From NCBI GenBank assembly GCA_902384455.1, contig CABMCB010000094.1, positions 1-64,000 on the forward strand: a stretch of 64,000 nt of DNA, read 5' to 3'. The notes below the pieces were generated by a model that did not search any database, had not been told where the DNA came from, and saw only the letters and a list, made by a program, of their open reading frames with translations. Source of the stretch: an uncultured archaeon. Lineage in GTDB: Archaea; Altiarchaeota; Altiarchaeia; IMC4; SCGC-AAA252-I15. Shown piece by piece: positions 24,176 through 58,040 of this stretch (position 1 is the first letter of the stretch; each line of letters starts with the position of its first letter). A program made the translations under genes and the position numbers.

Positions 24176-24809
24176 ACATCACCTATCTGAAAAACAAGAT
24201 AAAAATGGGCCGCCCCGAAGCAGGCGCGAATCCGGCGGCGTCCTGATCAAACGCCTGAGGCAGACCAAGCAACCCAGCAGGAGGCGAACTTGCCGACATA
24301 GCGCCCTACTTAGGCAGCATAGTCCGCCTCTTAAGGCGCTTTTTAATGCCCACAATCCTAGTACATAGACACCGAAAACACCGGAATTTTCCCTTACCTG
24401 TGGCGTACTCTCTTTCTACCACGGCTAGGCATACCGCCAAAGACTAGTTTACTGCATTCTGTCAGTCCACACAGTGTATAATGACGACTTTTTAGAGGCG
24501 ACTTTTTCGCTGTTTGTATAATAGTCGGCTTTTAGGTCTTCTCTGCCGATACGAACTGGAGGGACCTGTTAGCAGGAGCGTGAAAAACGTTGTATTTCCA
24601 GCAACTTTGCGTTCCATAAATTCAAGGGTGTAACGTTTCTTTAATTTGGTGAAGAGGGGTTGAAGAAACCTGCTTTGAACGCGTTAAGGCTGGATTAGCC
24701 GCTTTTTCTACCTCTTTCTAAGCTTCTTTAAAACCACCTTCTCATTGTCGTGCCCTGTTTAATGCTAATAATCCGCTAATCCATTAGGTTGACTGGTGGT
24801 GGCAAAATT
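24176..24809. other. gene-free left edge of the accessory island
   Basis: No convincing gene in these ~630 bases. The first ~170 bases are GC-rich with inverted repeats (for example AGCGCC near 24300 against GGCGCT near 24334, followed by a T-run) and could hold a structured RNA or terminator. From about 24400 composition falls towards AT. A copy of the 15-bp island-edge motif lies at 24468-24482 and a degenerate copy (TTTGTATAAT) at 24513-24522. Confidence 0.6.
24468..24482 (+). repeat. island-edge 15-mer, left copy
   Basis: CACACAGTGTATAAT, identical to two copies at 47301-47315 and 47330-47344 near the opposite island edge. It contains the near-palindrome ACACAGTGT. Confidence 0.7.
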
Positions 24810-25505
24810 ATGAGAAACTTAGGTAAAAGAAAATCGCGTAGTTTAGTGGTTGATCAGTTAGAGAATTTATCCAAGAGATGGTTTACTACTCACTATAATC
24901 TTATTACTGAAGCCATCGGAGATTCCCCCGGCATCTATGCTCTCTATGATGGTGATGAGTTGTATTATGTGGGTAAATCGATAGAGCTCAGGAAGCGAGT
25001 AAAAGAGCATCTTCGGGATAGGCACTTAGCTAGTTGGACTCGTTTTAGCTTATTTCTTGTACGGAAAGAGGAACATATCCCTGAAATTGAATCTTTGATA
25101 GTTAGAATCGCTAATCCAAAGGGGAATAGGCAAGTACCAACGGGAAGAGCAAGCAGTTCTATGTTGAAGACTCTTGTAGCTAAGCTCAACGAGGAGTTTA
25201 ATCAGGAAAAGGAGGAATTAATCGGCGGCTTAAAATCGAAAGGTGCAGGAAGAGTTAAGATGTCTATTGGAAGAGAACTGCAAGGCTTAGTTTCTAAGAA
25301 AACGCCGCTATATAAAACGTATAAAAACAGGGAGTATCAAGCAATTTTGACGCCATCTGGGGTTATCCGGTACAAAAATAAGGATTACACTAACCCAACC
25401 GCAGCAGCGAAAGCAGTTGTGGGGCGATCATCAGTAAACGGTTGGATCTTTTGGTACATCCAAGACCCAAAAGGCGACTGGATAAGACTTTCAGAATATA
25501 ATTGA
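24810..25505 (+). CDS. GIY-YIG nuclease-domain protein
   Basis: A 231-residue protein from ATG 24810 (a TTG at 24789 is possible). Residues ~35-110 form a GIY-YIG domain: PGIYALYDGDELYYVGKS, then the Arg helix ELRKRVKEH, and a later Glu in EIESLIVRI. The C-terminal ~70 residues (ILTPSGVIRYKNKDYTNPTAAAKAVVG, WIFWYIQDP) look like a RAMA/DUF4357-type domain, which is linked to modified-DNA recognition. It is the first gene of the AT-rich island and is probably a restriction-like or homing-like nuclease. Confidence 0.8.
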   Translation: MRNLGKRKSRSLVVDQLENLSKRWFTTHYNLITEAIGDSPGIYALYDGDELYYVGKSIELRKRVKEHLRDRHLASWTRFSLFLVRKEEHIPEIESLIVRIANPKGNRQVPTGRASSSMLKTLVAKLNEEFNQEKEELIGGLKSKGAGRVKMSIGRELQGLVSKKTPLYKTYKNREYQAILTPSGVIRYKNKDYTNPTAAAKAVVGRSSVNGWIFWYIQDPKGDWIRLSEYN

Positions 25506-25567: not shown

Positions 25568-27349
25568 TTATTTTGGTTGGAGCATATTTAGGACAATTTC
25601 TTTAAGGTTCTGGTGTCGTTCTGTTAGTTTTTGCATATCCCATCGATCTAAGCCTTCTAATTCTTTAGTAATAAGGAACTCTGTGCTCTTCTTTTTTTTG
25701 TAGAAGTATGTATCTTTCTTCTTCTTGAATTCAAAATTTTGTGCTGATGAATTTCTCATTCCGCTAAGTAGCACAAGGTTTCCTAATTTGTTGGTCCATT
25801 CGAGTCTTTGTTCTTCAGAAAACAGCCGCTGCCATTCACTATCTTTTGGCGGATTTCTTGGCAGAATATGTTCAACAGTAATAAGCCCAGTATATTCTTT
25901 ACTAATATTAGCTAGTTCTGATTTTTCAACGTCAATCCGTAGGAGGAAATATCTTGCTAATCGGCCACCGTATATGCTATACAATTGCGGGTGGTCTAGG
26001 ACGTCAGTTAGTATTTTTTTGACTTCTAACTGGTTACGATAGTCGATAAATCTTGCTTTTTTACCGCGAGAATCATCTTCGCGATAATATAACATCTTTT
26101 GGATAACCTCACTTGGGTCATCTGTAATATCAATTAATTTTATTATTCTATTGAAGCTTGTTGTCCTTTCGCTAAATGTAAATCCAGAGGATAACTCAAC
26201 AATCACCTTTTTCTCTAAAGTTAGGAGGAAATCGAGGAGAAGGTCTTCTCTTTTATACTTATGACAGAAGTGGATTAGGGGGGGTATCCAGTCCGCGAAG
26301 GGGATGTATTGCCCCATCAAATTTACGATTATTTTATATCTGTTCTTTGTTACTGAGTCGGTAGTGTTGATCTCGCCCTCAATTATCTTTTCCTTGTAAA
26401 TGTCTGCAATTTCCTTAACCAATTTAATGAATGCAGGGCCTTGAGGAAGGAGTTTCTTTTTAAAAATGGTCTGGTATTCTTCGTATATGCTTACTTTGGC
26501 TTTTTCCTGAAGTATTATAGTCCTTAAGAACCCCATTACATCTTCAAGTTCTTCTCTTCCGATGCTTTCTTCTATATCCACCCAGATTTTAGCGTATTTC
26601 CTTCTTTCGTTAGAATCTGATATCTCTCCAAGGCTTTCGTTCTTTAGTAAATCTGATGTTGTGAGTGGGAGTCCTCTAGCGTTTAGCACACTAAAGAGCC
26701 TAAATGCAGATATAAGATCTGTTGTTTTGATGTAAACGATATATACTCTATTCAGAAGATATTTCACAAAAGATTCTCTATCGGTTATTTCTTCTAATTT
26801 CGTCTTGAAGGTGGAAATAGCTTCGTATAAATGGTAGCGTGGAGTTTCTTCATCAATAAACTTTATCCGCTTATTTTCAAAATCTTTTAAGAATAGTGCA
26901 GTCCCTCCTATGGAGTACACATATTTTCTAAAATCATCTTTTAGTTCGTCCCAAGGCGTTACTTTCATAGCCTCTGGAATTTCTTTTAACGTATCCTCTT
27001 CAAGGTAGATGTATTTTTGTATTTGAGCCTTTTGCTTTTCATCCGAAGTGTTATCTCTTATGACTGCTAAAAGAACGGAGAGGGATACAATTCGTTGCTG
27101 ACCATCAATAATCTCAAATAGATTTTTACCTTTTCCTTGAAGGATTATCGAACCAATAAAATACTGTTCCTCCCCGCTTGTTTGAGCATCATAAATGTCT
27201 TCTATTAATTTCTGAAAATTTTCGCTTGTCCAGCTCAATGGTCTTTGGTATTCCGGTACTTCGAAAAGGAATTCATCACTAAAAATACGGGATAATAGTA
27301 CTTCTCTGGCCTCTATCTTTCGTTCTACTTCCATTCGTTCTACTTCCAT
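25568..27349 (-). CDS. GmrSD-like DUF262/DUF1524 type IV restriction protein
   Basis: A 593-residue protein. The N-terminal DUF262 domain has VPEYQRPLSW, FIGSIIL and FEIIDGQQRIVSLSVLLA, the ParB/Srx-like NTPase signature. The C-terminal DUF1524 domain has an HNH-type nuclease: VEHILPRNP near residue 490 and LGNLVLLSGMRNSSAQN. The order matches single-chain GmrSD, which cuts DNA with modified (often glucosylated hydroxymethyl) cytosine. The first residues are a tandem duplicate, MEVERMEVER, from a 15-base repeat, so either Met could be the start. Confidence 0.9.
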   Translation of the reverse strand: MEVERMEVERKIEAREVLLSRIFSDEFLFEVPEYQRPLSWTSENFQKLIEDIYDAQTSGEEQYFIGSIILQGKGKNLFEIIDGQQRIVSLSVLLAVIRDNTSDEKQKAQIQKYIYLEEDTLKEIPEAMKVTPWDELKDDFRKYVYSIGGTALFLKDFENKRIKFIDEETPRYHLYEAISTFKTKLEEITDRESFVKYLLNRVYIVYIKTTDLISAFRLFSVLNARGLPLTTSDLLKNESLGEISDSNERRKYAKIWVDIEESIGREELEDVMGFLRTIILQEKAKVSIYEEYQTIFKKKLLPQGPAFIKLVKEIADIYKEKIIEGEINTTDSVTKNRYKIIVNLMGQYIPFADWIPPLIHFCHKYKREDLLLDFLLTLEKKVIVELSSGFTFSERTTSFNRIIKLIDITDDPSEVIQKMLYYREDDSRGKKARFIDYRNQLEVKKILTDVLDHPQLYSIYGGRLARYFLLRIDVEKSELANISKEYTGLITVEHILPRNPPKDSEWQRLFSEEQRLEWTNKLGNLVLLSGMRNSSAQNFEFKKKKDTYFYKKKKSTEFLITKELEGLDRWDMQKLTERHQNLKEIVLNMLQPK

Positions 27350-27488: not shown

Positions 27489-28703
27489 ATGAAGTATTCG
27501 TATTCTCGTCTTCAGTGTTTTGAGAATTGTCCTTTGTCATTCAGATTCCGGTATATCGATAAGCTAGAGGTTGAGGCTTTTGAGACTATTGAGGCGTTCA
27601 TGGGTTCAAGAGTCCATGAGGCTTTAGAGAAGTTCTACATCGATAGAAATCATGGAAAAATAGCCTCGATTGAGGAGCTTATCGTCGGCTACAATGACTT
27701 GTGGAAGCGCTATCTTACTCCGGATATCGTAGTGAATAAAGAGGGTTTGACGCCGGAGCATTACCGGATCGTCGGGGAGAAATGCCTAATCGACTACTAT
27801 AACCGCTATAAGCCCTTTGCAATCGGCAAGACGCTTAGTACCGAGGTGATGGTCAACATTGACCTCCTAGGCGACGGGGAACACCAGTTCATAGGCTATA
27901 TCGACCGCCTAGATGCCGTCAACGATGGCGTATACGAGATCCACGATTATAAGACTAGCCAGCACCTACCGACCCAAGACCAGAAGGACCGGGACCAGCA
28001 GCTTGCCCTCTACGAAATAGGGATACGACAGATGTGGGACGACATCAAGGAAGTAGATCTAATCTGGCATTACCTCGTGTTCGACAAGGAAATCAGATCA
28101 AAAAGGACAAGCCAACACCTAGAAGACCTAAAGCAAGAGTTTCTAAACGTCATAAAGCGGATCGAGGAAGCCGAAGCCAAAGACGACTACCCTGCCATCG
28201 AATCCGGCTTATGCTCCTGGTGCGCCTACCAAGAACACTGTAAACTCAAGAAACACCAGGTGAAAACGAAGCAGCTACCGCTGAACAAATACATGACAGA
28301 GGAGGGCGTAGTCCTAGCCAACAAGTACTCCGAATTGAAAGCAAAAGAGAAGGAGTTCACGGATTGGTTCGAGGGCGAATACAATCAGCTCGCCGAAGCA
28401 CTCATAGCCTACGCCAAAAAAGAAGGCGTAGAATTCATCTATGGAACAGACAAACGAGTACGCGTAGCCATAAAAGAAGCACTCAAATTCCCCGCCGCTG
28501 AAACCCCAGAACGCCAAAAACTAGAGGAAATCCTCAAAAAAGACGGTTTCTGGGAAGACGTAAGCACCCTAAACATCCGGGGACTAGAGAAGAAAATACA
28601 GGAACACGAATTTCCATCCCAACTAGAAAAAATACTTAAAAAATACGCCACAACAGAAGAAACCACGCGACTAACACTAAGCAAAATCAAAGAAAACGAC
28701 TAA
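27489..28703 (+). CDS. RecB/AddB-like PD-(D/E)XK nuclease with Fe-S cysteines
   Basis: A 404-residue PDDEXK_1 protein. It opens with the RecB-type start YSYSRLQCFENCPLSFRFRY, then GSRVHEALEKFY, then the catalytic GYIDRLDAVNDGVYEIHDYKTS, and ends the domain with CSWCAYQEHC. Four cysteines (one near residue 10 and three in the last motif) are placed to bind a [4Fe-4S] cluster, as in Cas4 and AddB. A helical C-terminal extension of ~150 residues follows. No CRISPR array or cas gene is near. Wobble bases shift from G/T at the 5' end to A/C at the 3' end. Confidence 0.88.
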   Translation: MKYSYSRLQCFENCPLSFRFRYIDKLEVEAFETIEAFMGSRVHEALEKFYIDRNHGKIASIEELIVGYNDLWKRYLTPDIVVNKEGLTPEHYRIVGEKCLIDYYNRYKPFAIGKTLSTEVMVNIDLLGDGEHQFIGYIDRLDAVNDGVYEIHDYKTSQHLPTQDQKDRDQQLALYEIGIRQMWDDIKEVDLIWHYLVFDKEIRSKRTSQHLEDLKQEFLNVIKRIEEAEAKDDYPAIESGLCSWCAYQEHCKLKKHQVKTKQLPLNKYMTEEGVVLANKYSELKAKEKEFTDWFEGEYNQLAEALIAYAKKEGVEFIYGTDKRVRVAIKEALKFPAAETPERQKLEEILKKDGFWEDVSTLNIRGLEKKIQEHEFPSQLEKILKKYATTEETTRLTLSKIKEND

Positions 28704-28738: not shown

Positions 28739-29854
28739 ATGGCAGGGTTACAGGAACATGATATGCGATCAATGAAAGAATCATTGCAAGCCTATCTATC
28801 AAAAACACCTGCTGAAGAGGATGATGAAGAGGAAGAAAAAGGTAATGACAATAAAGTTAAGACGTATATAGTTGAATCAAATATTGACGATCCTAGGCGA
28901 ATTGAATATTGGCCTTTGGAATCTAAATTAAATGGGACCACTGACTCAAACTTATGGACGGTAAATATTCCCACGAATAGTAGTGATGACTTGTTTCTTT
29001 TTTTGGATACCACAGATCCGCGTTTCTGGCTATTTCACACATATGGAAAATCTAAGCCAGTACAAGATTTTATAGATAAACTTATAACTCAGGATAGGAG
29101 CAAGTTAGATTATTCTTGGTTTGCGTCTAACTTCCTCGAAAATAGATGTAATATAGGCGTTGGGACTGGTTTTGGATTGAAATATTTTAATTCTTTTTTG
29201 GAGAACACAGAAGAGATTGAGGAAAAAGGACTCCATCGATTTTCTATGCTCTTTTGGGGACAACAGCCTAGTCAAGTTCTAGCGGGGTTAAAAGGAAATC
29301 AAGTATTAGTTTCGGGTGTAGCGTTATCGCGAATAAAAAGGATATTTAAAACGCAGGATGGTTATGTTAAAGAAAATATTCATTCGAACGGGCAGTTTAC
29401 CCTAACAAAAGGCGATTCAATAGATAGTCATTTTTTAGCAGTGGATAAAGTCAAAAATCAATACTCGCAATTGATAGAAAAAATTGAAAATAATTATAGA
29501 ATACAATACCAAAGTACTGATTCTGGTTTTAGAATTAAGGGAACTTATGTGGTTATTGAATTCACAAAAAAGATAGAGAATATGGGGTTATTCATTAAGA
29601 ATTTTCTTTCTTGCACTCAACCATTTAGGCTTTTTGGCATACCCCGAATAGAGAGTGAGACTTTTGTTAAAGTTGCAGCTGTTGATCTCCACACCTATGA
29701 TAAATTCAATATGGAAATAACTCCTGAAAGCATCCGACTATTTTTAGATCAAGAAAGTTGTGGAAATGTGATTACGCGATTGATGACAAATCTTCAACAC
29801 TACTATGATTCACAAATAGTAATTAAGGGGTGCAATGATGAGCAAATCCTCTAA
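28739..29854 (+). CDS. unknown 371-residue protein, first gene of a two-gene unit
   Basis: Not a family I recognise. After a helical N-terminus comes an acidic stretch (residues ~25-38, EEDDEEEEKGND). Then an alpha/beta region contains LFLFLDTTDPRFWLFHTYG and a glycine-rich GVGTGFGLKYFNSF near residue 140. Later sections are strand-rich (NYRIQYQSTDSGFRIKGTYV). No nuclease, NTPase or membrane motif is evident. It overlaps the next gene, which has a nuclease signature, by 20 bases. Position between restriction genes suggests a defence role, possibly target sensing (inference). Confidence 0.7.
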   Translation: MAGLQEHDMRSMKESLQAYLSKTPAEEDDEEEEKGNDNKVKTYIVESNIDDPRRIEYWPLESKLNGTTDSNLWTVNIPTNSSDDLFLFLDTTDPRFWLFHTYGKSKPVQDFIDKLITQDRSKLDYSWFASNFLENRCNIGVGTGFGLKYFNSFLENTEEIEEKGLHRFSMLFWGQQPSQVLAGLKGNQVLVSGVALSRIKRIFKTQDGYVKENIHSNGQFTLTKGDSIDSHFLAVDKVKNQYSQLIEKIENNYRIQYQSTDSGFRIKGTYVVIEFTKKIENMGLFIKNFLSCTQPFRLFGIPRIESETFVKVAAVDLHTYDKFNMEITPESIRLFLDQESCGNVITRLMTNLQHYYDSQIVIKGCNDEQIL

Positions 29855-30698
29855 AAGTACGAAATTATTGAATTGTATTATTGCTCTCACAACTAAAACT
29901 CCGGATTTTCCTAGCCCATTATACGACAATGGGTATCAAATAGAAGTTATAGAACCAAGAATTTTATTGTCGGATGGTTCTCAATCAAATCCAGATATTC
30001 AATTAAAGAAAAACGATGATTACCTATTGTTCTTTGAGTGTAAGGATGGGTTTTGTGAAAAAGATCAATTAGATAGGTATAAACGGATGACTTGTGATGA
30101 CATCAAGCGAACAAAAACATCATCTCTCTCCTCTTCTAAGTTATATTATGACCTAAGTTATTTTTGCACAAAGGAAAGCGAGGATAAGTTAATACCAAGC
30201 ATTGACAAGGACGGAAATATTTTTCCGATTATCGTTCTCGATTCGGATAAAATTTTTCATCATGTACAATCCAAAGGTTTTAACAATAAACAAACAGAAG
30301 CGATCTTAAAAGAGATCAAATTTGATAAACCTGTGCCCGAAAGCTTTATACCCTTTACAGTGGACGATAGTAATGAAACAATCACGATATTTCTATTACA
30401 GCATTTTATGTCTCGTTCAGGATATGAGTTTACATTAGATACTCTATTACAGGAACTCTTTTCGCATTTAATATTCAATTACTCCAGAAAAAGTAAAGAC
30501 GAACTAAAGGCTAGAATTGGACAGATAATAACTGGTTTAAAAAAGCGACCGGATATAGATGGTGCGATAACCCAAAAAGGGGATAAATACAAAGTTGAGC
30601 CTTCTGGCCCTAAAAAATTTAGGAGTTCTTGCATGAAAATTATTACTCAATATGAAGAACAACAGAACAAAATAACTCTTCAAAATTGGATGGACTGA
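29835..30698 (+). CDS. putative PD-(D/E)XK nuclease, second gene of an unknown two-gene unit
   Basis: A 287-residue protein. Residues ~50-75 read NPDIQLKKNDDYLLFFECKD, an Asp followed after 16 residues by E-x-K, the core of PD-(D/E)XK nucleases. The rest has an alpha/beta middle and a C-terminal wHTH-like section (TLDTLLQELFSHLIFNYSRK, KKRPDIDGAITQKGDKYKVE). I do not recognise the full-length family. Translation is probably coupled to the upstream gene through a 20-base overlap, so the two products likely work together. Confidence 0.7.
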   Translation: MMSKSSKSTKLLNCIIALTTKTPDFPSPLYDNGYQIEVIEPRILLSDGSQSNPDIQLKKNDDYLLFFECKDGFCEKDQLDRYKRMTCDDIKRTKTSSLSSSKLYYDLSYFCTKESEDKLIPSIDKDGNIFPIIVLDSDKIFHHVQSKGFNNKQTEAILKEIKFDKPVPESFIPFTVDDSNETITIFLLQHFMSRSGYEFTLDTLLQELFSHLIFNYSRKSKDELKARIGQIITGLKKRPDIDGAITQKGDKYKVEPSGPKKFRSSCMKIITQYEEQQNKITLQNWMD

Positions 30699-30707
30699 TT
30701 GGATATA

Positions 30708-31265
30708 CTAAGTCCTCTCTTTTTCCCATTGTTCCCATTCTTGTTTTTCTTGTTTTTGTATCTCGTTGAGGCGTTCCTTCTCCTTCTGATCGTCGTGTTT
30801 TCTTCGTGTTCGGGCGGTGGTGGTTATTGCGTCCCATTCATCGGCTATTTTCCTTAGGAAGGTGCTGAATTGCAGGCTTTCGTGTTCGTAACTTCGTCTT
30901 TTGCTTTTGATTGTCCAACGTGTGTTTTTTGGTATTTCTCTTGTTCGGTGGATTAAACCGAATCGGTATAGTTTGGGTATGATGTGTTTGTTGAGGGTGT
31001 TTATGCTGTATTTATTTTTCAGGCAGAATTCGACCTTGTCTTGGTAGGTTACTTCGCCTTTTTCGACGAGAAATTCGACGTATTTTGCCGCTATCTTATG
31101 GCATATCGGACTGTATTCCGTTGGGAAGAGGAATTCCAGAAGGTCGTCTGTGTTCCAGCGGAAGGAGTAGTCCCATATTTTGGCGCCGTATTTTCGTCCG
31201 CCTTTCTCCGGGAAATATAGGGCGTGCCTTGAGGGTATTCCTTTTCCGTTGTGGTTACCCACCAT
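30708..31265 (-). CDS. wHTH-type island protein A
   Basis: A 185-residue protein from ATG 31265 (GTG 31274 possible). Residues ~30-150 match the gene at 5325-5828: DDLLEFLFPTEYSPICHKIA, then HIIPKLYRFGLIHR, then ESLQFSTFLRKIADEWD. The tail is a long charged helix rich in Lys, Glu and Gln, likely a coiled coil. The first ten codons lie in a 32-bp sequence repeated at 47472-47503. It overlaps gene B. The family is unknown; DNA binding is inferred. Confidence 0.7.
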   Translation of the reverse strand: MVGNHNGKGIPSRHALYFPEKGGRKYGAKIWDYSFRWNTDDLLEFLFPTEYSPICHKIAAKYVEFLVEKGEVTYQDKVEFCLKNKYSINTLNKHIIPKLYRFGLIHRTREIPKNTRWTIKSKRRSYEHESLQFSTFLRKIADEWDAITTTARTRRKHDDQKEKERLNEIQKQEKQEWEQWEKERT

Positions 31266-31268
31266 AGG
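31237..31268. repeat. 32-bp repeat, left copy (start region of wHTH gene A)
   Basis: Thirty-two bases covering the first codons of wHTH gene A and its start. They recur with one mismatch (T to G at position 9) at 47472-47503, 16.2 kb away in the same orientation. Confidence 0.7.
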
Positions 31269-31665
31269 TATCACCGTATCTAGCGTATATCCTGAACCAT
31301 TCTAAGCCGATGAAACGTATCCTGTCTGAGAAAGCCTTTTCCAGATGAACCGTGTATTTCTTGCCTTTACCTCGTTCTCCCTCAACCCGGACTAGCCCGA
31401 ACTTCTCGAGTTTGGGCAATACGACGCTTATCAGCGTGTGGTAGTCAGATCCTACAACCTGCTTGATGTTGTTGCTCTCAATGGACTTGAGCTCAAGCAT
31501 CTGTTTCATGAACTTGAAGGCACAGTCAAACTGCTTCTTGTTGGTTTCTTCCGGGAAGAACAGCTGCATGAACTCCCAGACGCCCATATGCTGCCTCCCG
31601 TCAACCCTCCGTAACAGGTCGTCCTTGATGAATACGCTATCGTTAGCCCTTCGGTTCATTTTCAC
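31255..31665 (-). CDS. wHTH-type island protein B
   Basis: A 136-residue diverged relative of proteins A and C: WEFMQLFFPEETNKKQFDCAFKF, then LISVVLPKLEKFGLVRVEGERG as the wing and recognition region. It overlaps A by ~11 bases and C by 23 bases, so the three minus-strand genes form one operon, C then B then A. Confidence 0.65.
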   Translation of the reverse strand: MKMNRRANDSVFIKDDLLRRVDGRQHMGVWEFMQLFFPEETNKKQFDCAFKFMKQMLELKSIESNNIKQVVGSDYHTLISVVLPKLEKFGLVRVEGERGKGKKYTVHLEKAFSDRIRFIGLEWFRIYARYGDTYGG

Positions 31666-32074
31666 AGATCAATACCCAACTTTGAGCCAGATACTCTAGG
31701 TACTCAAGGAACTTGTCACTTAACCTAATCTCATACTGCATCTTGCTCTTACCCACCTTCTCTACCAAACCAAGGTACATGAGCTTATACAACATGACAT
31801 CCCTACTGCTCCTGCTATGGCTCACCTTACTGGAAAACCTAGCCCAATCATCCTGCGTAAAAGACTTACCCGCCCGCCGATAAGCCACCAGCTCCCTCAA
31901 AAACATCAAACAGATATCAGAAACATAGCTAGGATGATCATGCCACAAAAAAGACACAAAACCACCCAAATCTACGAGCTCCCCGGAATCGAACTTCTCA
32001 GTCAAACCCTTACGAAAAAATAACTTCTCAACCCTCAACTCATTATCCCGGTTACTAGGCGCGTGCTTACCCAT
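31643..32074 (-). CDS. wHTH-type island protein C, first gene of the trio
   Basis: A 143-residue protein from ATG 32074; a frame to 32122 adds 16 residues of poor quality. The layout is like A and B: LGGFVSFLWHDHPSYVSDICLMFLREL, then SSRDVMLYKLMYLGLVEKVG and a C-terminal helix. Its promoter region is shared with the divergent PLD-helicase gene starting at 32160, so the trio could regulate that restriction operon (inference). Confidence 0.65.
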   Translation of the reverse strand: MGKHAPSNRDNELRVEKLFFRKGLTEKFDSGELVDLGGFVSFLWHDHPSYVSDICLMFLRELVAYRRAGKSFTQDDWARFSSKVSHSRSSRDVMLYKLMYLGLVEKVGKSKMQYEIRLSDKFLEYLEYLAQSWVLICENEPKG

Positions 32075-32159
32075 CCTCCACACACGTGAGGAACACGCAT
32101 ATAAAAACCCAGATCCTAGCAAAATTGACTAATTTTAACTGTCCAGCAAATAACATACC

Positions 32160-35100
32160 ATGACCGAGGATTTTGATTTTAGCACTTTCCTAAACCAGGG
32201 GGCTATAATTGATAACCGCCGGTCATTTAATGAAAAGACAGTAACTCTAAAAAGGGTTTTAGAGAGCCTTGCTAAGGGTTCTGAGGCGTTCAAATGTGCT
32301 GTTGGATACTTTTACATTGAGGGTCTTTCTGAGATAATCAACTCCTTAGATAACTTCAAAGAAATAAAGATTTTGATGGGCAGTGAGACAACGCCAAAAA
32401 CAAAGACAGAACTGATTAATGCATTCAAGAACGGCTTCGATAAAATAGAAAAAAATGAAACGACTATTCCCGCTATCCTACTTTTTCATAAGCTTGTTAA
32501 AGAGGCAAAAACTCTAAAAGTAAAAGTCTACTTGGGTGAAGATGGTAACTTCCAAAGACTACACTCAAAACTATATTTGTTCATAAAAGATAACGAATCA
32601 AAAGAAGCCTTAGATAAGTACAAGGCCGCGGTTGTCGGATCATCCAATTTAACCCCGAGCGGTTTAATCGGCAATACTGAACTTGATGTAATAATTGAAA
32701 GAAGGCCGGATTTACAGTATCTTGAGAAGTGGTTTGACGGTCTGTGGACAATTGGGACTGAGGAATTCGAGAAACTCAGGGTATCTGATGCAATAATTGA
32801 AGCTATCGAAAAGTCGAAGTTTGGGGAGCATCTAAATGAATCGTATACTTACCTAGAACCGGTTGAGTTCTTTACCGTATTAATAAAATTCCTAAAAGCA
32901 GATTATCTCTTTGAAGACTGGAAGAAATCAGGACTGTTCAAATTCCAAGTTATTGACACTATACGGTGTTTACGGCTCTTTAGGGAAAAGGACTATCGGG
33001 GCGTATTCTTAACCTCCTCAGTAGGTTTAGGTAAATCCTATGTGGCCTGCCAAATATCTGAAATACATTTACGCGAAAAAAAGGACGTACTCATAATAGG
33101 TCCAGCAAACCTTGTGCAAAGCGAAGACCAATGGCCGAGGTATCTAAAGGAGTTTAATCTTATTGGGAAAGTCCACCTTGTCTCTATGGGGGCTCTTCAG
33201 GACGATCCAGGCATAGTTTTCAACAAGAGATTTGTCAATTATTCCACCGGTGGAAAAGTTAAACTTGATAGCGAAAACAAATATGACCTCATTATTGTTG
33301 ACGAAGCCCACAACTATCGTAACCCCGATGCTTACCGCACACGCAACCTAAAGAGGATAATAGATTTAAACGGTAAAGCAAAGATACTTTTCTTAACTGC
33401 CACGCCGATTAATACACGCCTAGAAGACTTGATAAACCTGATTAACTTATTCCACCGACCCGGCGCGAATCTTTACTTTGATAAGATAATCCGTGACTTT
33501 AAGGCCATCCTAGGACATTTAGCGACTACTGAATTTGAGGATTTAACCGAATACGAAAGGGGTGAACTGGTTAAATTGCAGGAAGAAGTTGAAAAAGAAT
33601 TGTTTGTCAAATCAACAAGAGAAACAATAAAATCAGATGAAACATACATCCAAGAACTCAAGTATTTTACTGGTGTAGACATAACCAACATACCAGACCC
33701 CACTGTTGAGGGGGAGGTATATGTCCTTCATGAGCGTTACAGGCCCATTGTGAATGGAATTGTAGATTTCATAAATAGCCTAAGTGCAGCACACCTACGG
33801 ATAGTAGACCCCGAGAAGGGTATTAGGTTAGGTGGATTCTTCAAATGGGTGCTTTACAAGAGATTTGAAAGCAGTATCTACGCATATTACCTAACTCTGA
33901 CAAGATTAGCCAAGAAAAACATAAGCATTGAATCTGCAATACAAAACCGAGATATTAAATACCTTGAACCTGAAGACGAAGATGATATCCCGATCACTTT
34001 TGAGCTTGACTTCAAAGAAAATCTTCAAAAAGTTATCGACAAAATAAAACAGGGGAAAGGCGCAGAACACCTAGCAATCTTATCTGAACTCACAAAGGAT
34101 AGGGAACTGATTCAGGAAGAACTGAAAAAATTGACGCCCTTACTCAACAAAAAACAAATATTCGAGGACGACAAAAAACTAGAGAAATTAGAGCAAACAC
34201 TCAGAGAACAAAAAAATAAGAAGATACTTGTCTTTACCGAATACAAAGACACACTAAAAGCAATAAAGCAAGTAATAAGCGAAAATTTCGACCAGGAAAC
34301 AATAAGATTCGTCTCCTCAGACACAAAAAACAAAGAAGGGATAATAGAAAAATTCAACAACAAAAACTCCAACCTTAGAATACTAATAACTACCGACACC
34401 CTATCTGAAGGAGTTAACATAAGCGGGGCGGATATCGTAATAAACTACGACATACCCTACAATCCCGTAAGAATCATCCAAAGAATCGGTCGTGCAACTA
34501 GACTAGACAATCCCAAAGAGGTCCTAGTTATAAACTATAAACCTGATTCGGACATAGACAAAGAGCTTGAATTAGTCTCTAAGATGGATCTCCGAATCAA
34601 GGACATAATCAAATTCGTAGGAGTAGACTACAGAGTATGGATTGACAAAGAAAATGAGGTAAAAAAACTCTTAGAAGAAAGACGAGCAAGAGATAGGGTA
34701 AACTATGCCAAAGTACTAGAAAACATAAGAAACGACGTATGGTCCGGAGACTTCTCAGACCTCGAATCCAAGATACAATACACAAAACCGTCGCTAATCC
34801 TATTACAAAAAGCAATAAACAAATACCACCTGAAAAGAGAGGATATAGAAAAAACACAAGAAATACCACAAAAAGCGTACACCTGCCTGCAAGGACAACA
34901 TAACCTATCTGTATTCTACGGTAATGGAGAAACATTCAACGAAGAGCATCTCTCAAAAATCGACATAAAAGAGACGCGAAAAGAGATAATACTCGAAAGA
35001 GAATTCAAGAACGAATTAGATGACTTTTCAGAGCAACTAAAGAAGGAAAAACAAGAGGAGTTAAGCCTTAGGTATTATAACGACCGGATTGATAGAAAAA

Positions 35101-35375
35101 TCTACGATGTACTAGACATACTCAAAGCCGAGGGGTATACTGAGATATATCCAAAATCTAAGGGGTTTATTGATGTATTATTATCCGTTAAAGACAATTG
35201 TGGGGGTACTACAGAACAAGTTGTAAATAGAATACATAACGATATACGCAAAATATCAAATCAGAATTTAGATGAATGGATAGAGCGTATAACTATGAGT
35301 TTCACAAGAAAACACGTGCAAGAAAAACTAGTCAAAGAATCAGAGCACCGGCTAGCATTAGCACTCATTGAATAA
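32160..35375 (+). CDS. PLD-nuclease/SNF2-type helicase of a restriction-like system
   Basis: A 1071-residue protein. The N-terminal domain has one HKD motif near residue 133 (LHSKLYLFIKD) followed by VVGSSNLTPSGL, a phospholipase-D-type nuclease. A superfamily 2 helicase follows: Walker A SSVGLGKS near 290, DEAH in LIIVDEAHNYRNP, LTATPIN, and the C-terminal motif VI IQRIGRATRLDNP. The last ~250 residues are helical and charged. Six bases separate it from the methyltransferase gene, so the pair likely forms an ATP-dependent restriction system. DISARM has similar SNF2 and methylase parts, but its other genes are absent. Confidence 0.85.
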   Translation: MTEDFDFSTFLNQGAIIDNRRSFNEKTVTLKRVLESLAKGSEAFKCAVGYFYIEGLSEIINSLDNFKEIKILMGSETTPKTKTELINAFKNGFDKIEKNETTIPAILLFHKLVKEAKTLKVKVYLGEDGNFQRLHSKLYLFIKDNESKEALDKYKAAVVGSSNLTPSGLIGNTELDVIIERRPDLQYLEKWFDGLWTIGTEEFEKLRVSDAIIEAIEKSKFGEHLNESYTYLEPVEFFTVLIKFLKADYLFEDWKKSGLFKFQVIDTIRCLRLFREKDYRGVFLTSSVGLGKSYVACQISEIHLREKKDVLIIGPANLVQSEDQWPRYLKEFNLIGKVHLVSMGALQDDPGIVFNKRFVNYSTGGKVKLDSENKYDLIIVDEAHNYRNPDAYRTRNLKRIIDLNGKAKILFLTATPINTRLEDLINLINLFHRPGANLYFDKIIRDFKAILGHLATTEFEDLTEYERGELVKLQEEVEKELFVKSTRETIKSDETYIQELKYFTGVDITNIPDPTVEGEVYVLHERYRPIVNGIVDFINSLSAAHLRIVDPEKGIRLGGFFKWVLYKRFESSIYAYYLTLTRLAKKNISIESAIQNRDIKYLEPEDEDDIPITFELDFKENLQKVIDKIKQGKGAEHLAILSELTKDRELIQEELKKLTPLLNKKQIFEDDKKLEKLEQTLREQKNKKILVFTEYKDTLKAIKQVISENFDQETIRFVSSDTKNKEGIIEKFNNKNSNLRILITTDTLSEGVNISGADIVINYDIPYNPVRIIQRIGRATRLDNPKEVLVINYKPDSDIDKELELVSKMDLRIKDIIKFVGVDYRVWIDKENEVKKLLEERRARDRVNYAKVLENIRNDVWSGDFSDLESKIQYTKPSLILLQKAINKYHLKREDIEKTQEIPQKAYTCLQGQHNLSVFYGNGETFNEEHLSKIDIKETRKEIILEREFKNELDDFSEQLKKEKQEELSLRYYNDRIDRKIYDVLDILKAEGYTEIYPKSKGFIDVLLSVKDNCGGTTEQVVNRIHNDIRKISNQNLDEWIERITMSFTRKHVQEKLVKESEHRLALALIE

Positions 35376-35381
35376 TCAAAG

Positions 35382-38300
35382 ATGAGGATACAGGACATCT
35401 TAGGGGGGGGACAAAAACTTGAGGAATTTTTAATAGAAAAAGGCTATAAAGTTGAAACTGAGTATATTGACAAAGAATATCCCTCAGCACTTTTTATTAA
35501 GTTAGATAAAAGACGATTACTAGCAATTATTGAATTATCTAATGAAGAATCTATTAAGGAAATAAAAAATTATTTTCTTATTGATAAAGGATTAACCCAT
35601 TGTTGTTTGATTCTTCCTCAAAAACTGTTATTCTTTAGGAACTTCGGTGAACGAAGATATTTCCTATACTCTCAAAGGACTAGTGATTCAATTTCAAAAA
35701 TCGACAAACTAGATAAAATAAATGATGATTTTGATTTGTTATTCCAAACTCGAGATGTCTCTGGCGACTTTTACGAAAAATTTAGACTTAAACGAGATTT
35801 TCTTGTCAGGCATATACAGAATGATTTTGAGTCTCCAGAAAAATATCTCATTGCTCAAAAAATATTTGATAGAATCTTCTTTATCTATTTTTTGTGTCAT
35901 AAGGGTATAATAAAATTTTCAGATGGTCGTGCTATAGGGGGGAAATCTCTATTTAAAATACTGCTTGAAAATGGCGAATTCACAAAAAATTTAAAAAATT
36001 TATTCCATCTATTCAATGACGTTGAAGGAAAGTCCATTAAGATTGGTGATAATGTTATCTTAGTACCATATCTTAATGGTGGCCTTTTTCGCCCAGATGT
36101 TTTAGAGCTAGATTTAGATATTTCTCTCACAAATAAAGATTGGAATTCTATCCTAGATTTTCTTAATGACTATCATTGGATTATAGAGGACGATATTACC
36201 GTAGCTGTCCACGACGAAGAAAAAGTATTAACTCCCGAGATATTGGGGCATGTTTATGAACGGGGTGTAGTTGAATGGGAGAATATTGGTTATAATAATG
36301 CTGCAGATGAATCTACAGGTAAAAAGTCGATAAGTGAAAGGAAGAAGAAGGGAGTATATTATACTCCCGAAGAGATTACTGACTATATATCTAGAAACAC
36401 AATTTTCCCATATATCCTTGAAAAATTTGGGGGAAAGTATTCGAGTATAGAAGATATCTTGGATATTGGGGATAAATCAGATTTAGAAGAATTAAAAAAT
36501 ATTTCATTAAATCTGAAGATATTAGACCCTGCATGCGGTAGTGGGGCTTTTTTAATAAATGCGGCCGAAATTTTGTTCTATCTTAATGCAAGAATAAATT
36601 CAAAGCTGGGTATAAAACAGAGATATTATGACATTAAACTTGATATTGTAACAGAAAACATATATGGTGTTGATATACTGCAAGGATCTTCAGAAATATC
36701 AAAGTTACGACTATGGTTATGGTTGATAGCTGATTATGTTGACGTAGTAGATATCAAAGCATTACCCAACATCGAGTATAACATCCGTGTAGGGAATAGT
36801 CTCGTTGGATGGATAGATGAAAAATTGGCCCAGATACCATTAAGGAGCCCACTAACAGATGAGATAGTGGGAATATTCAAAGGACTTAGGGTATACTCAA
36901 ATAATCAAGATACGCAAAAAATTGAAAAAGCTAGAGCATTATTAGGGGATAATGAATGGACCTCAAATAACCCTACCCATCCATTAGAGCGGTATATAGA
37001 AGCATATTCACTTCTCTACTCGATATATAGGAAATCTCATGGGATTAAGGCTGAAAATTTAAAGGGCATAATCGAAACTATTCGAAAAGCAATTTACTCG
37101 AGTATAAGTCCCGGATATTACGAGTATGTTAATGACCGCTTAAAAAAAGACCATATTCGCCCTATTCCGTATACTGAATTTTACCAATTAAAACCATTCC
37201 ATTGGAGAGTAGATTTTGGGGATATTATCAAGAGGGGGGGATTTGATATAGTAATTGGAAATCCACCTTATGTCGATGCACAAACCCAATCATCTAAATA
37301 TGAAAAAACAACGATTAAGGCGCTGTATTTGTCATACACAAATAATTGTGATTATTATGTTCCGTTCATTGAGCTAGGTGCAATAAAACTATGCAGTAAA
37401 GACGGTAGGTTCTCATATATCTGCCCAAATAATTTTTTAAAGCTAGAGTATGGTAAAAACATAAGGAAGCTATTAGAAGGGAGAGTGTATGAGATAGATG
37501 ATTTTGGAGCAAACCAAGTATTTTATGGGTCAGATATCACTAACTATTCCCTTTTGATATTTTCTAGAGGCAAATGTAAGATTCTGGATTATCGATATTT
37601 TAAGTATAAAAAAGATTTTGAACCTATCCTTAAGTCGGGTAGATTAAACTTTTCTTATCCAGCTGATGAATTTGAAGATAATATTTCATATCATTCATTA
37701 TATCAAGATTATAAGGGATTTGTACTTTTTAATGAAAGTCCCTGGATTTTTTTAACAAAGCTTGAGGAGAAATATCTCCCAAATATAATAACAGATAATA
37801 TTCCATTAACTGAAGTTATTGGTGCAAAAATCCATGAAGGAAGTAGTACCGGAGATGATGATTTCTATCTCTTAGAGGATTGTAAAAACAAGAAGGGTTT
37901 GATTGAGGGTTTTTCTAAACTGAAAGAGGAGAGGATTACTATTGAAAAAGAGTTATGTAAAAAATATGTTAAAAGAATATCTGAAGACTTCAGGATAGTT
38001 GATGAAAATATGTTCTTGGTATTTCCATATAAAAAACAGGGCGACGGATACATTTCCCTCTCCGAAAAAGAACTAAAAAAATACTCGATTGGTTATCCAT
38101 ATTTCAAGGAATTTAGGGGTAGACTGGAAAAACGAGAAGACATTAAGAAGAAATCAAATTTTGAAGACACGTGGTTTCTATTCTCTGCAGCGAGAAGTTT
38201 AGAGTATTACGATAAAAACAAGATTATTATGAAATTTACCTCTAAAGACAAACCAAAATTTGCTATCGATAAAGAGGGATACTTTCATAATGCTTCGATT

Positions 38301-38591
38301 AATAACATCACGATAGAGGCATCTATTGATATCCCGGTAGAAGTGTTATTCAATATTCTAGTTTCAGATTTTACAAAATATTTTATTGCAAGGTTTGGTA
38401 CTTTTCTCAGGGGGGGGTATATTAGATATGAAGAACGTTTTTTGAAAAATTTACCAATACCAAAAAAGATAAAGACGAAAAGATGTACGGATATGAAAAC
38501 TAGTTATGGATATGATTCCTTATTTGATAAATTTATTGAAAAATTTTTAGAAGAATGGATTTCAGATAACGGTAATTCAGAACTGCAATAG
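35382..38591 (+). CDS. N6-adenine DNA methyltransferase, Eco57I/type IIG-like
   Basis: A 1069-residue protein partnered with the upstream helicase. The N-terminal ~320 residues are of unknown fold. The methylase has KKGVYYTPEEITDYI, motif I LDPACGSGAFLINAAE near residue 382, the Asp of motif III, and catalytic NPPY in DIVIGNPPYVDAQ near 626. The last ~350 residues include FGTFLRGGYIRYEERFLKNLPIP, the TaqI-C-like target recognition end. It would protect host DNA at a 5-7 bp site. No separate specificity subunit is seen, so specificity is probably within this chain. Confidence 0.9.
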   Translation: MRIQDILGGGQKLEEFLIEKGYKVETEYIDKEYPSALFIKLDKRRLLAIIELSNEESIKEIKNYFLIDKGLTHCCLILPQKLLFFRNFGERRYFLYSQRTSDSISKIDKLDKINDDFDLLFQTRDVSGDFYEKFRLKRDFLVRHIQNDFESPEKYLIAQKIFDRIFFIYFLCHKGIIKFSDGRAIGGKSLFKILLENGEFTKNLKNLFHLFNDVEGKSIKIGDNVILVPYLNGGLFRPDVLELDLDISLTNKDWNSILDFLNDYHWIIEDDITVAVHDEEKVLTPEILGHVYERGVVEWENIGYNNAADESTGKKSISERKKKGVYYTPEEITDYISRNTIFPYILEKFGGKYSSIEDILDIGDKSDLEELKNISLNLKILDPACGSGAFLINAAEILFYLNARINSKLGIKQRYYDIKLDIVTENIYGVDILQGSSEISKLRLWLWLIADYVDVVDIKALPNIEYNIRVGNSLVGWIDEKLAQIPLRSPLTDEIVGIFKGLRVYSNNQDTQKIEKARALLGDNEWTSNNPTHPLERYIEAYSLLYSIYRKSHGIKAENLKGIIETIRKAIYSSISPGYYEYVNDRLKKDHIRPIPYTEFYQLKPFHWRVDFGDIIKRGGFDIVIGNPPYVDAQTQSSKYEKTTIKALYLSYTNNCDYYVPFIELGAIKLCSKDGRFSYICPNNFLKLEYGKNIRKLLEGRVYEIDDFGANQVFYGSDITNYSLLIFSRGKCKILDYRYFKYKKDFEPILKSGRLNFSYPADEFEDNISYHSLYQDYKGFVLFNESPWIFLTKLEEKYLPNIITDNIPLTEVIGAKIHEGSSTGDDDFYLLEDCKNKKGLIEGFSKLKEERITIEKELCKKYVKRISEDFRIVDENMFLVFPYKKQGDGYISLSEKELKKYSIGYPYFKEFRGRLEKREDIKKKSNFEDTWFLFSAARSLEYYDKNKIIMKFTSKDKPKFAIDKEGYFHNASINNITIEASIDIPVEVLFNILVSDFTKYFIARFGTFLRGGYIRYEERFLKNLPIPKKIKTKRCTDMKTSYGYDSLFDKFIEKFLEEWISDNGNSELQ

Positions 38592-53786: not shown

Positions 53787-54305
53787 CTATTTTTTCTTCT
53801 TTATCGTTTCCGTAAGCGCCAAAAGGCCTTTGAGTATTTCCGTCGGAGTCGGGGGGTTGCCGGGTATTTTAGCGTCCACGGGGAGTATTTTGTCGGCTCC
53901 GCCGAGGACGGCGTATGAGTCTTTGAATATGCCTCCGTCGCATGCGTCGTCTCCGACTGCGATTACGAATTTGGGGTTTGGCATCGCATCGTAAGTTTTT
54001 TTGGCGGCAATAGCCATGTTATGGGTGATGGGGCCTGTGACAACCAGGACGTCGGCGTGCCGCGGGGAGGCGACGAATGTTATGCCGAACCGTTCGACGT
54101 CGTAGTAGGGTGTTGTAAGGTTTACGAGCTCTATTTCAGGGGAGTTGTCGCTTCCTGTGTCCAGTTCGCGGAGGGCTAGGCTTCTCCCGAAGATGGCGTC
54201 TACTTCCTTTCGCAGCTTGATTCCGACGGCATCAAATTCTTCGTCTGTGAACGTGAAGTTTTTTGTCGACTTTGGTGTAACTATGTTTTTGAGTGGGTTC
54301 GCCAT
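53787..54305 (-). CDS. NuoB/HyfI-like subunit without any Fe-S ligand cysteines
   Basis: A 172-residue homologue of the complex-I/energy-converting-hydrogenase small subunit, clear from YYDVERFGITFVASPRHADV, VTGPITHNM and IPGNPPTP. The four Cys positions that hold the proximal cluster are changed: CNGC reads D53-N-S-P56, GDCA reads GDDA with Asp120 (a Cys is two residues later), and PGCPP reads PGNPP with Asn150. A conventional [4Fe-4S] cluster cannot form. The fold core is well conserved, so this is not a decaying gene. Confidence 0.9.
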   Translation of the reverse strand: MANPLKNIVTPKSTKNFTFTDEEFDAVGIKLRKEVDAIFGRSLALRELDTGSDNSPEIELVNLTTPYYDVERFGITFVASPRHADVLVVTGPITHNMAIAAKKTYDAMPNPKFVIAVGDDACDGGIFKDSYAVLGGADKILPVDAKIPGNPPTPTEILKGLLALTETIKKKK

Positions 54306-54315
54306 TGTTTTTTCC

Positions 54316-55893
54316 TCACAGGTCCGTTCCCGCGTACGACAGGTTCAGGCTTTTATTGATTAAGGGGAAATCGGGCACGATGTTGCCCAAAACCGCATGC
54401 TCTATGGCCTGCCAGTTGCAAAACGACGCCGTCCGCACTTTGTAGCGGTCGATGCGACCGTCTTTTATTCGCACCCAATGCAGGTTTTGGCCTCTTGGCG
54501 CTTCTATTAGGGATAGTGCGCTGCCGTCTGCGGGCTTGAGCGTAGTGTGGATGGCTTTGTTTTCGGGTATCCTGCAGATTAGTTTTTGTATTATGGCGGA
54601 GGAGTCATGTATTTCCGCCGCTTTGACTTCGAACCTAGACAGGACGTCGCCTTCTTCCCTCGTCCGCTTTTGCAGGTGCAGCTTGGGGTAGAGGCCGTAG
54701 GGGTGGTCTATTCGGGTGTCTACTTGTGCGCCTGATGCGCGGGCGGCTGGTCCGGTTATGTTAAGGGGTTCGATAAGCTCTTTTTTGATTACGCCCGTGC
54801 GCTCCAGGCGGTCTATGACTGATGTGGATGAGCGGATTGCGTTTACCGCTTCAGTGAATTTGCCGGAGAATTCCTCGAGGTAGTCTGAGAATTCGGTGAG
54901 CGATTCGTCGGGGATGTTTTTTGTGAGGCCGCCTGTTGTGATTATGTCGCGTAGGAAGCGGGAGCCGGTTAGTTTTTGGTTTTGTTGTAGTGTTTGTTCG
55001 CGTAGGATGAAGAAGGGGCTTGCGCCTGCTGGGTATGCGACGTCTATTATCATTCCGGCCATGTCGCCAAGGTGGGAGTAGATGCGTTCTGTTTCCAGCA
55101 GTATTGTTCGTATGTGCCATGCTCTTTCGGGTGCGTTTGTGTCGGTTATTTTTTCTATGGCGTTGCAGTAGGCGGTTGTGTTTGCGGCGGTTTCGTCGCC
55201 GCTTATGGCTTGGGCTATTTTGACGGATTCTTGTGGTGTTTTTCCTTCGGCTAGTTTTTCTATGCCTCGGTGTTTGTAGAACATCCGGATTTCGAGGTTG
55301 AATATTGTTTCGCCTATTACGCTGAATCTGAAGTGGCCTGGTTCTATTATGCCTGCGTGTACTGGGCCGACGGGTATTTGGTATACTCCTTCTCCGTGTA
55401 CTTGTTTGAAGGGGTATTCGTCGGCTGCGTTGTTTTTTGTGTTTGTTGTTATTGGTCCGTTTTTGATTGTTTTTAGTAGGGGGTGGAAGTCGTTGGGGTA
55501 TGTTTCGTGTAGGAATAGGCGGCGGATGTCGAATGCGTTTTTGAATTTGATGCCGAATCCGTCTGTGATTTCTCGTTCGTACCAGCAGGCGGCGGGGAAT
55601 GTTTCGGCTATTGATTGGGCTGTTGTGTTTTTTAGTGGTATTTGGATTGTGAGGGTGTGTGGTTGGTGGCGTCGTTCGAAGACGTAGTGTAATGTGAATC
55701 CTTTTTTTGTGTCGGTTTCTTGTGTGCAGAATAGGGCTATTAGGATGAAGCCTTTTTGAGCGATGGCTGGAAGCGTCTCTTCCATCTCTTCTTCGCTGAG
55801 GGTTATGGCGATTTCTTGGCTGCGTCCGTCGGTGGCCAATTCGGCTTTTTTGTTGCCGAATATGCCGTTCAGTTCTGCTCGTAGTTCGTCCAT
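54316..55893 (-). CDS. NuoCD/HyfG-like subunit lacking the NiFe site
   Basis: A 525-residue fusion of a NuoC-like N-terminus (CWYEREITDGFGIKF) and a NuoD/hydrogenase-large-subunit-like body (VGPVHAGIIEPGHFRFSVIG, MFYKHRGIEKLAEGK). The first nickel motif, normally RICGICxxxH, reads QAISGDETAANTTAY near residue 231; the second, normally DPCxxC, is replaced by a C-terminus SLNLSYAGTDL. It therefore cannot bind NiFe and is of the 'energy-converting hydrogenase related' (Ehr) kind. Strong conservation elsewhere argues for a working subunit. Confidence 0.92.
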   Translation of the reverse strand: MDELRAELNGIFGNKKAELATDGRSQEIAITLSEEEMEETLPAIAQKGFILIALFCTQETDTKKGFTLHYVFERRHQPHTLTIQIPLKNTTAQSIAETFPAACWYEREITDGFGIKFKNAFDIRRLFLHETYPNDFHPLLKTIKNGPITTNTKNNAADEYPFKQVHGEGVYQIPVGPVHAGIIEPGHFRFSVIGETIFNLEIRMFYKHRGIEKLAEGKTPQESVKIAQAISGDETAANTTAYCNAIEKITDTNAPERAWHIRTILLETERIYSHLGDMAGMIIDVAYPAGASPFFILREQTLQQNQKLTGSRFLRDIITTGGLTKNIPDESLTEFSDYLEEFSGKFTEAVNAIRSSTSVIDRLERTGVIKKELIEPLNITGPAARASGAQVDTRIDHPYGLYPKLHLQKRTREEGDVLSRFEVKAAEIHDSSAIIQKLICRIPENKAIHTTLKPADGSALSLIEAPRGQNLHWVRIKDGRIDRYKVRTASFCNWQAIEHAVLGNIVPDFPLINKSLNLSYAGTDL

Positions 55894-55897
55894 TTGT

Positions 55898-57355: not shown

Positions 57356-57356
57356 C

Positions 57357-58040
57357 TTAATCCTCCTCCTTAGACCACCCGTGGAAAGGGTGAAGCCGCA
57401 TATGGAATTCCTCGATGCTCGAGTCTATGCCTATAGTGAGTATCAACGCAAGCAGCACAAGGATGAACAGGTCAATCATAATCAAAACCTCCACGATGAA
57501 AGGAAGCTCGGCCAAAAATAAACTGAAAAGTAGGACGCCGTTCTCCATCACCAAGTACCCGATGATTTTGGTGACAAGCTTCTTGCGGCTGACAGCCACC
57601 ATCATGCCCATTAACGTAAGCGAGACGCCGAATACTGCGCCAAGGTAAAATAGGTTGCTTAAGGCCAGTTCACGGATGATCTCGGAAAAAGCCGTATAGA
57701 CCAGCAGGATGAGTATTATGGTGGCAACCAAAGAGCGCGCAGGAGTGAAATAATGAAACTCAAGGTCCCGTTTTATGCGCATCTCCCTCTGAATGCTGCG
57801 CATTACGTACGGAATCAGTATGACCTTGCTTATGAGAGTTAGAGCGGCAAGGTACAGAAGAACCGAACTTCCATCCAACAGGTAAAGGAATACGGCCGCA
57901 AGCACCAGAAGGAATGACTGTGCGGCATATGTGGAGACTAGCGAGAATAGGTCTCGTCTGGTGACGACTAATGCGCCTGTGATGAACGTGAGTGCTAGAA
58001 GTACTTTAATCCATTCTGTTAGTAGCAGCGGGTCGATCAT
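57357..58040 (-). CDS. HyfE/NuoK-like membrane subunit
   Basis: A 227-residue protein with six or seven helices. The second half (IGYLVMENGVLLFSLFLAEL) carries the conserved membrane Glu of the NuoK/MrpC lineage. The size matches HyfE, a NuoK domain fused to extra helices. It overlaps the HyfC-like gene by ATGA. Confidence 0.9.
   Translation of the reverse strand: MIDPLLLTEWIKVLLALTFITGALVVTRRDLFSLVSTYAAQSFLLVLAAVFLYLLDGSSVLLYLAALTLISKVILIPYVMRSIQREMRIKRDLEFHYFTPARSLVATIILILLVYTAFSEIIRELALSNLFYLGAVFGVSLTLMGMMVAVSRKKLVTKIIGYLVMENGVLLFSLFLAELPFIVEVLIMIDLFILVLLALILTIGIDSSIEEFHMRLHPFHGWSKEED

Follow-up and report, generated by a model that had tools for sequence, protein, structure and literature searches.

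A mobile gene pair in an Altiarchaeota defence island encodes a predicted PD-(D/E)XK nuclease with a clamp-binding-like tail

Gene organization of the locus

In an Altiarchaeota MAG, genes A and B lie in a defence island that is AT-rich, within a window of 64,000 nucleotides, by which we mean the whole stretch of DNA that was analysed (Table 1). The first-pass annotation had described two genes that overlap by 20 bases and are flanked by GmrSD-like, RecB-like and restriction genes; both open reading frames and their overlap are present, and profile matches confirm the identity of the flanking genes. The overlap suggests that translation of A and B is coupled, and the actual start of A may lie a few codons 3' of the annotated one. 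The GmrSD-type gene encodes a complete single chain, which matches Orf5 of PADLOC and, with its N-terminal part, HEC-06, and the helicase and methylase genes downstream constitute an R-M or Hma/DISARM-like unit. One of the short ORFs that separate this unit from B has weak HTH similarity to CasR/Csa3.

The GC3 of A and B is 0.29-0.30, and a low GC3 is common to the pair and to the GmrSD, helicase and methylase genes (0.27-0.39), with values of 0.5-0.7 for sampled genes elsewhere in the window. The minus-strand ORFs have a host-like GC3. The PD-(D/E)XK gene upstream, separated from A by a 35-bp gap, was considered as an operon partner of A-B and rejected, as the other loci have no common upstream gene and its own GC3 is host-like. 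Two further features of the window were recorded. At 24789-25505 a RAMA domain is fused to a GIY-YIG nuclease, resembling the PADLOC candidate PDC-S14, and the minus strand of 53787-60921 holds four gene families (f8, f9, f18 and f19) that also occur, in similar order, at another A-B locus (L074).

Table 1. Features of the A-B locus and its surroundings in the window
Feature	Position	Strand	Description
GmrSD gene	25568-27349		GmrSD_N 1.1e-34, GmrSD_C 2e-24
RecB/Cas4-like PD-(D/E)XK gene	27489-28703		PDDEXK_1 2.2e-29
Gene A	28739..29854	+	371 aa; partner protein, family without assigned function
A/B overlap	29835..29854	+	20 bp
Gene B	29835..30698	+	287 aa; predicted PD-(D/E)XK nuclease, winged helix and clamp-binding-like C-terminal tail
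B residues 1-145	29835..30269	+	Restriction-endonuclease-like nuclease domain (AF2, Foldseek)
B nuclease core codons	29952..30080	+	E40 (29952), D54 (29994), E68-C-K70 (30036-30044), Q78 (30066), Y82 (30078)
B residues 180-278	30372..30668	+	Winged-helix DNA-binding domain (AF2, pLDDT about 90)
B C-terminal tail	30669..30692	+	KITLQNWM; degenerate PIP-box, K for first Q
Three short overlapping ORFs	30708-32122	-	Between B and helicase/methylase
PLD-SNF2 helicase and Eco57I-type (Eco57I/TaqI_C) methylase	32160-38591

Distribution and evolution of the gene pair

Homologous A-B pairs were found at about 35 loci, in taxa that include Methanocaldococcus, Methanoperedens, haloarchaea and Acidobacteriota and on Bacillus-type plasmids; owing to this recurrence and to low dN/dS values, the pairing far exceeds chance. 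Plasmid searches returned the pair in Methanocaldococcus jannaschii, Halobacterium hubeiense, Lysinibacillus irui and Metabacillus, where the homologues are annotated as neighbouring hypothetical proteins. Genome searches, in which relatives in contigs were retrieved with a subset alignment as the query, added Altiarchaeota, methanococci, Methanoperedens, Methanoregula, haloarchaea with relatives from their phylum, and Acidobacteriota. The pair is present in 4 of the 29 genomes of its own phylum (Altiarchaeota), in 3 of 36 from the methanococcal phylum, in 22 of 394 from the phylum that contains Methanoperedens and haloarchaea (that of genome G134; a few weak matches are partial) and in 2 of 399 in a bacterial sample, and certain genomes carry two copies. 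The distribution is patchy: A-B is an old, mobile pair scattered over archaea and a few bacteria. With the queries tried, no viral relative was found in 2.9 million viral contigs and no phage relative in 50,697 phage records.

Wherever the contig extends far enough, A is always adjoined by B or by a remnant of B. The two genes overlap by 4-32 bp at most main-clade loci (by 20 bp in M. jannaschii and one relative), and one Acidiferrales locus has them swapped, as B-A, with a gap of 13 bp. Decay of B next to an intact A was observed twice; B is interrupted by a 2.2-kb insert in one case (L073:6905-9683) and reduced to about 71 residues in the other (L077:10655-10864). The C-terminal unit of A occurs alone on a Natronosalvus plasmid (L005:7971-8411), among small genes without assigned function, and a similar short match to this unit was obtained on a Salinibaculum plasmid (L112).

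A and B co-evolve. Their pairwise distances are correlated overall (r = 0.97; 0 of 2000 permutations) and inside each of the two main clades (r = 0.94 and 0.97). Among unsaturated close pairs, the dN/dS of A lies at 0.08-0.13 and that of B at 0.11-0.30 (dS is saturated in the L064/L065 pair); purifying selection acts on both genes, and A evolves more slowly than B.

Database searches

Profile and structure searches identified neither protein as a known defence or housekeeping family at full length, which upholds the earlier statement that A belongs to no recognised family and extends it to B. The only full-length matches are PHROG clusters without function, phrog_22469 for A (2.1e-60) and phrog_27163 for B (6.9e-16); in neither case does any member correspond over its whole length to a named family. 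Searches against PDB sequences with A and B, as single sequences and as profiles, gave no significant match. When 42 A and B homologues were scanned singly, the matches were at chance level except for HSDR_N_2, a restriction-enzyme N-terminal domain that weakly matches two members (best E 3.7e-4). No full-length PADLOC match was obtained for A or B, the best chance-level E value being 0.0022. For the window proteins themselves, A has no match at E <= 1 in Pfam, NCBIfam or PADLOC, and B has chance-level matches only, with none in Pfam.

Nuclease core and winged helix of protein B

The PD...ECK core previously noticed in B is present, with the PD pair at residues 53-54 and ECK at residues 68-70, accompanied by E40, Q78 and Y82. 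At about 20% identity, all 17 main-clade B proteins retain D54 (D/E), E68 (D/E), K70, Q78 and Y82. The PD-(D/E)XK motif is thus found in the main clade and not in a second, mostly Methanomicrobia clade (L072-L087), where ECK is replaced by ELT, the catalytic lysine is lost and the PIP tail is kept; in these proteins a catalytic residue may be displaced, or B may be an inactive binder.

The AF2 model of B from four sequences (pLDDT 75.6, pTM 0.76) has a nuclease core of H7-19, E35-39, E55-59, E62-68, H76-83 and E105-112, a winged helix of H180-192, E197-199, H201-215, H218-237, E245-248, E251-254 and H259-278, to which the previously noted wHTH-like end corresponds, and a disordered tail. This structure rests on one model, since the five AF2 models differ in quality (75.6 for the best, 50-56 for the others). 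The Foldseek neighbours of the nuclease domain are mostly nuclease folds (XisH, Bax1, AF1548, Hjc and R2 endonuclease), with a probability of 0.99 to XisH, yet no match reaches E <= 1e-3. From conserved residues and model together, B is probably a PD-(D/E)XK DNA endonuclease with a winged helix, and it is predicted to cleave DNA.

The C-terminal tail of protein B

Most B proteins carry a short terminal motif beyond the winged helix, in one aligned block of columns. The archaeal tails read QTTLD, QMTLDKFL, QTSLDDF, QSTLDDF, QSNLSNF, QRTIADF, QRTLSDF and QTNLSDF, and the bacterial tails QLSLFDY, QLTIDEF and QEDLPL; QLSLF, at the end of the Lysinibacillus protein, is the exact beta-clamp consensus. 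According to published work (PMC9690074), motifs that bind PCNA follow the consensus Qxx[I/L]xxFF and those that bind the beta clamp follow QL(S/D)LF. The tail in the window aligns with QTNLSDF, QTSLDDF, QRTLSDF and QLSLF of the homologues, and the AF2 pLDDT of its residues 280-287 is below 50. A clamp motif at a flexible terminus is a property of the family, with a degenerate copy in the window. The haloarchaeal tails are off-spacing (QSRLDSDAW), and those of Acidiferrales, Methanoperedens and locus L085 fit the motif poorly.

Within their last 20 residues, 13 of the 28 B proteins have the strict PIP pattern Q..[ILM]..[FWY], versus 4 of 511 tails of neighbouring proteins, with a Fisher value of 2e-15 that is overstated because the B rows are related; the mean for the pattern in shuffled tails is 0.43. 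The beta-clamp class motif occurs in 4 of 28 B proteins and 0 of 511 controls, and both contrasts are flattered by patterns that were written after some tails had been seen. Stronger points for the tail than these counts are the exact match to QLSLF and the fact that the consensus was published independently. Judged by sequence, B ends in a putative sliding-clamp-binding motif, of the PCNA type in archaea and of the beta-clamp type in bacteria, and docking of B on PCNA or the beta clamp is predicted from it. The motif, which the first-pass annotation did not contain, is new here and is our best mechanistic clue.

Protein A

Twelve positions are identical in 30 of 30 A homologues (K41, E46, R95, D124, W127, G218, Y242, D316, H318, C341, N343 and R347), and on this ground they suggest a ligand, nucleic-acid or catalytic site. 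The AF2 model of A (pLDDT 63) leaves the middle, 132-216, unmodelled and has an alpha/beta C-terminal unit. Its Foldseek neighbours are RnlA, TBP, CENP-N, Iml3, KA1 and AdoMetDC, none of them significant (E >= 0.04); as we read it, this list of neighbours suggests, with low confidence, a TBP/helix-grip-like topology and a TBP/RnlA-like fold.

Several other ideas about A were rejected. An internal duplication, proposed from two alpha/beta units, received no support from hhalign, and a clamp-like fold, proposed from the topology, received none from Foldseek. The acidic N-terminal stretch to which attention had been drawn before is real (AEEDDEEEE), but it is a low-confidence linker that most homologues lack, and thus is no functional hallmark of A. 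On an Altiarchaeales contig, the gene that overlaps the start of A (L010:45-899) looked PglZ-like by eye; this identity found no confirmation in Pfam at 1e-3 or in PADLOC at 1e-6.

Defence neighbourhood

Defence neighbours (R-M, Hma, type III R-M, OLD and Lamassu-like) accompany A-B at about 10 loci, about a third. Besides GmrSD and R-M in the window, they comprise a type III Mod-Res immediately 3' of B (L056), a type III methylase (L022), Hma (L064 and L065), a helicase with a methylase (L067 and L076, where a unit like that at 32160-38591 of the window recurs beside A-B), a Lamassu/Gabija-like ATPase (L079), PDC-S28 (L003) and an OLD-like gene (L002). BrxL-type matches were obtained in two neighbour proteins, not assigned to a locus. 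Many A-B loci have no recognised defence neighbour. With PADLOC at 1e-10, the 138 nearest neighbours matched 212 families, and 142 control proteins, chosen by position only from other regions of the same genomes, matched 14; this ratio is inflated, since families were counted and a few large helicases and methylases weigh heavily.

A neighbourhood survey had been proposed in the first-pass annotation, and its outcome is a conserved, co-evolving pair, patchily distributed and enriched near defence genes when families are counted, which is the pattern of defence by association. As the neighbours otherwise differ widely, A-B is a unit of its own. The case for a defence role is circumstantial. Of the earlier reading, a new defence system made of a sensor and a nuclease effector, the conserved and unrecognised unit, the PD-(D/E)XK nuclease and the defence-type setting stand; the role of A as a sensor and the purpose of defence are predictions.

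Discussion

We propose, at an even chance, that A-B is a mobile defence cassette against mobile genetic elements, in which B is a clamp-docked nuclease and A a recognition or licensing subunit. The flexible C-terminal tail of B would dock on a sliding clamp, which is PCNA in archaea and the beta clamp in bacteria, and would thereby put the nuclease onto DNA under replication. A, the product of the overlapping and co-evolving gene, would recognise the trigger and license B; it is probably a TBP/RnlA-like protein that binds nucleic acid or a ligand in a conserved polar pocket. If the DNA being copied is foreign or abnormal, A would release the activity of B, which, delivered via the clamp, would cut that DNA and perhaps stop viruses or plasmids. 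The narrower idea that an immune nuclease travels on the sliding clamp and cleaves DNA during copying, with a tail that changes from PCNA-type to beta-clamp-type between archaea and bacteria, is tentative, and we rate its chance at rather less than even.

The main rival to defence is DNA repair, which we consider unlikely. B would be an accessory, horizontally spread, NucS-like nuclease that is tethered to the clamp and acts behind the fork, cutting DNA that contains damage or mismatches, with lesion recognition by A. Its architecture and the motif swap between archaea and bacteria closely parallel NucS/EndoMS (PMC8228993), and clamp tethering is classically a trait of repair and replication (PMC9690074). 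Nevertheless, the pair is patchy, borne on plasmids and islands and present twice in certain genomes; decayed B copies are tolerated, the GC3 of A-B is low, and repair genes were not noticed as recurrent neighbours.

Next comes an addiction or TA-like module of plasmids and islands, in which B would be a toxin that cuts DNA at the host fork and A would restrain it. Overlapping genes, plasmid carriage and the weak similarity of A to the RnlA fold suit such a module, and a sliding-clamp-binding toxin, SocB (cited in PMC9690074), provides a precedent. We regard the module as rather improbable, because A exceeds B in size, conservation and constraint, unlike a typical antitoxin, and persists next to truncated or interrupted B. 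Replication or copy-number control encoded by the element, or competition between plasmids and proviruses, would account for the presence of the pair on several plasmids and as PHROG families, and for the clamp motif of B; this is quite improbable given the viral and phage searches, which returned no relative with the queries tried, and the many chromosomal copies, part of which lie beside defence genes. Least probable is that A and B are subunits of an adjacent R-M or Hma system, as the SNF2-type helicase and methylase near A-B (window, L064, L065, L067 and L076) and the type III Mod-Res (L056) might imply, for such genes are absent from most of the roughly 35 loci, the neighbours differ widely, and in the window the strands and spacing do not place A-B and the R-M genes in one operon.

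In most known defences that target DNA, the feature recognised is the sequence, a modification or a DNA end. If B docks on the clamp as we propose for a defence cassette, ongoing replication would be the place or the cue of attack, and immune nucleases would be connected with repair nucleases such as NucS. A likely biochemical role would also be given to two families that have none in the libraries searched, including the pair of hypothetical proteins on the M. jannaschii plasmid. That the clamp motif is swapped from one domain of life to the other is a clear prediction that can be tested directly.

Comparison with known systems

PHROG 22469 and PHROG 27163 are the full-length families of A and B, and their annotation includes neither the pairing nor the nuclease core nor the clamp tail. 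Bax1 (the XPB partner nuclease), Hjc, XisH, AF1548 and R2 endonuclease are fold neighbours of the nuclease domain of B; they have no sequence relation to it except for a weak R2 match (E 0.89), and differ from it in partners and functions. The best fold neighbours of A, which are non-significant, are RnlA/TBP-like proteins (RnlA, TBP, CENP-N, Iml3 and KA1), from which A differs in having no recognised HEPN domain and no sequence similarity to them.

Two-gene defences composed of a sensor and a PD-(D/E)XK effector exist, examples being Hachiman and Lamassu-type nuclease modules. A-B shares with these a small operon, an effector of the REase fold and a place in defence islands, but Pfam finds no helicase, ATPase or SMC domain in A, and a clamp tail such as that of B is not described for them in the literature searched. 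No paper on a clamp-tethered defence nuclease was found, which is weak evidence since the search covered only a minority of subscription papers.

The closest parallel to the tail comes from the endonuclease NucS/EndoMS, which has a PIP at its C-terminus in archaea and a motif for the beta clamp in actinobacteria (PMC8228993). The C-terminal clamp motif of B is likewise PIP-like in archaeal members and beta-clamp-like in bacterial ones. B does not match a NucS profile in Pfam (window B and members) or NCBIfam (window B), is paired with A and has a C-terminal winged helix; and B is patchy and mobile, whereas NucS is widely conserved in archaea.
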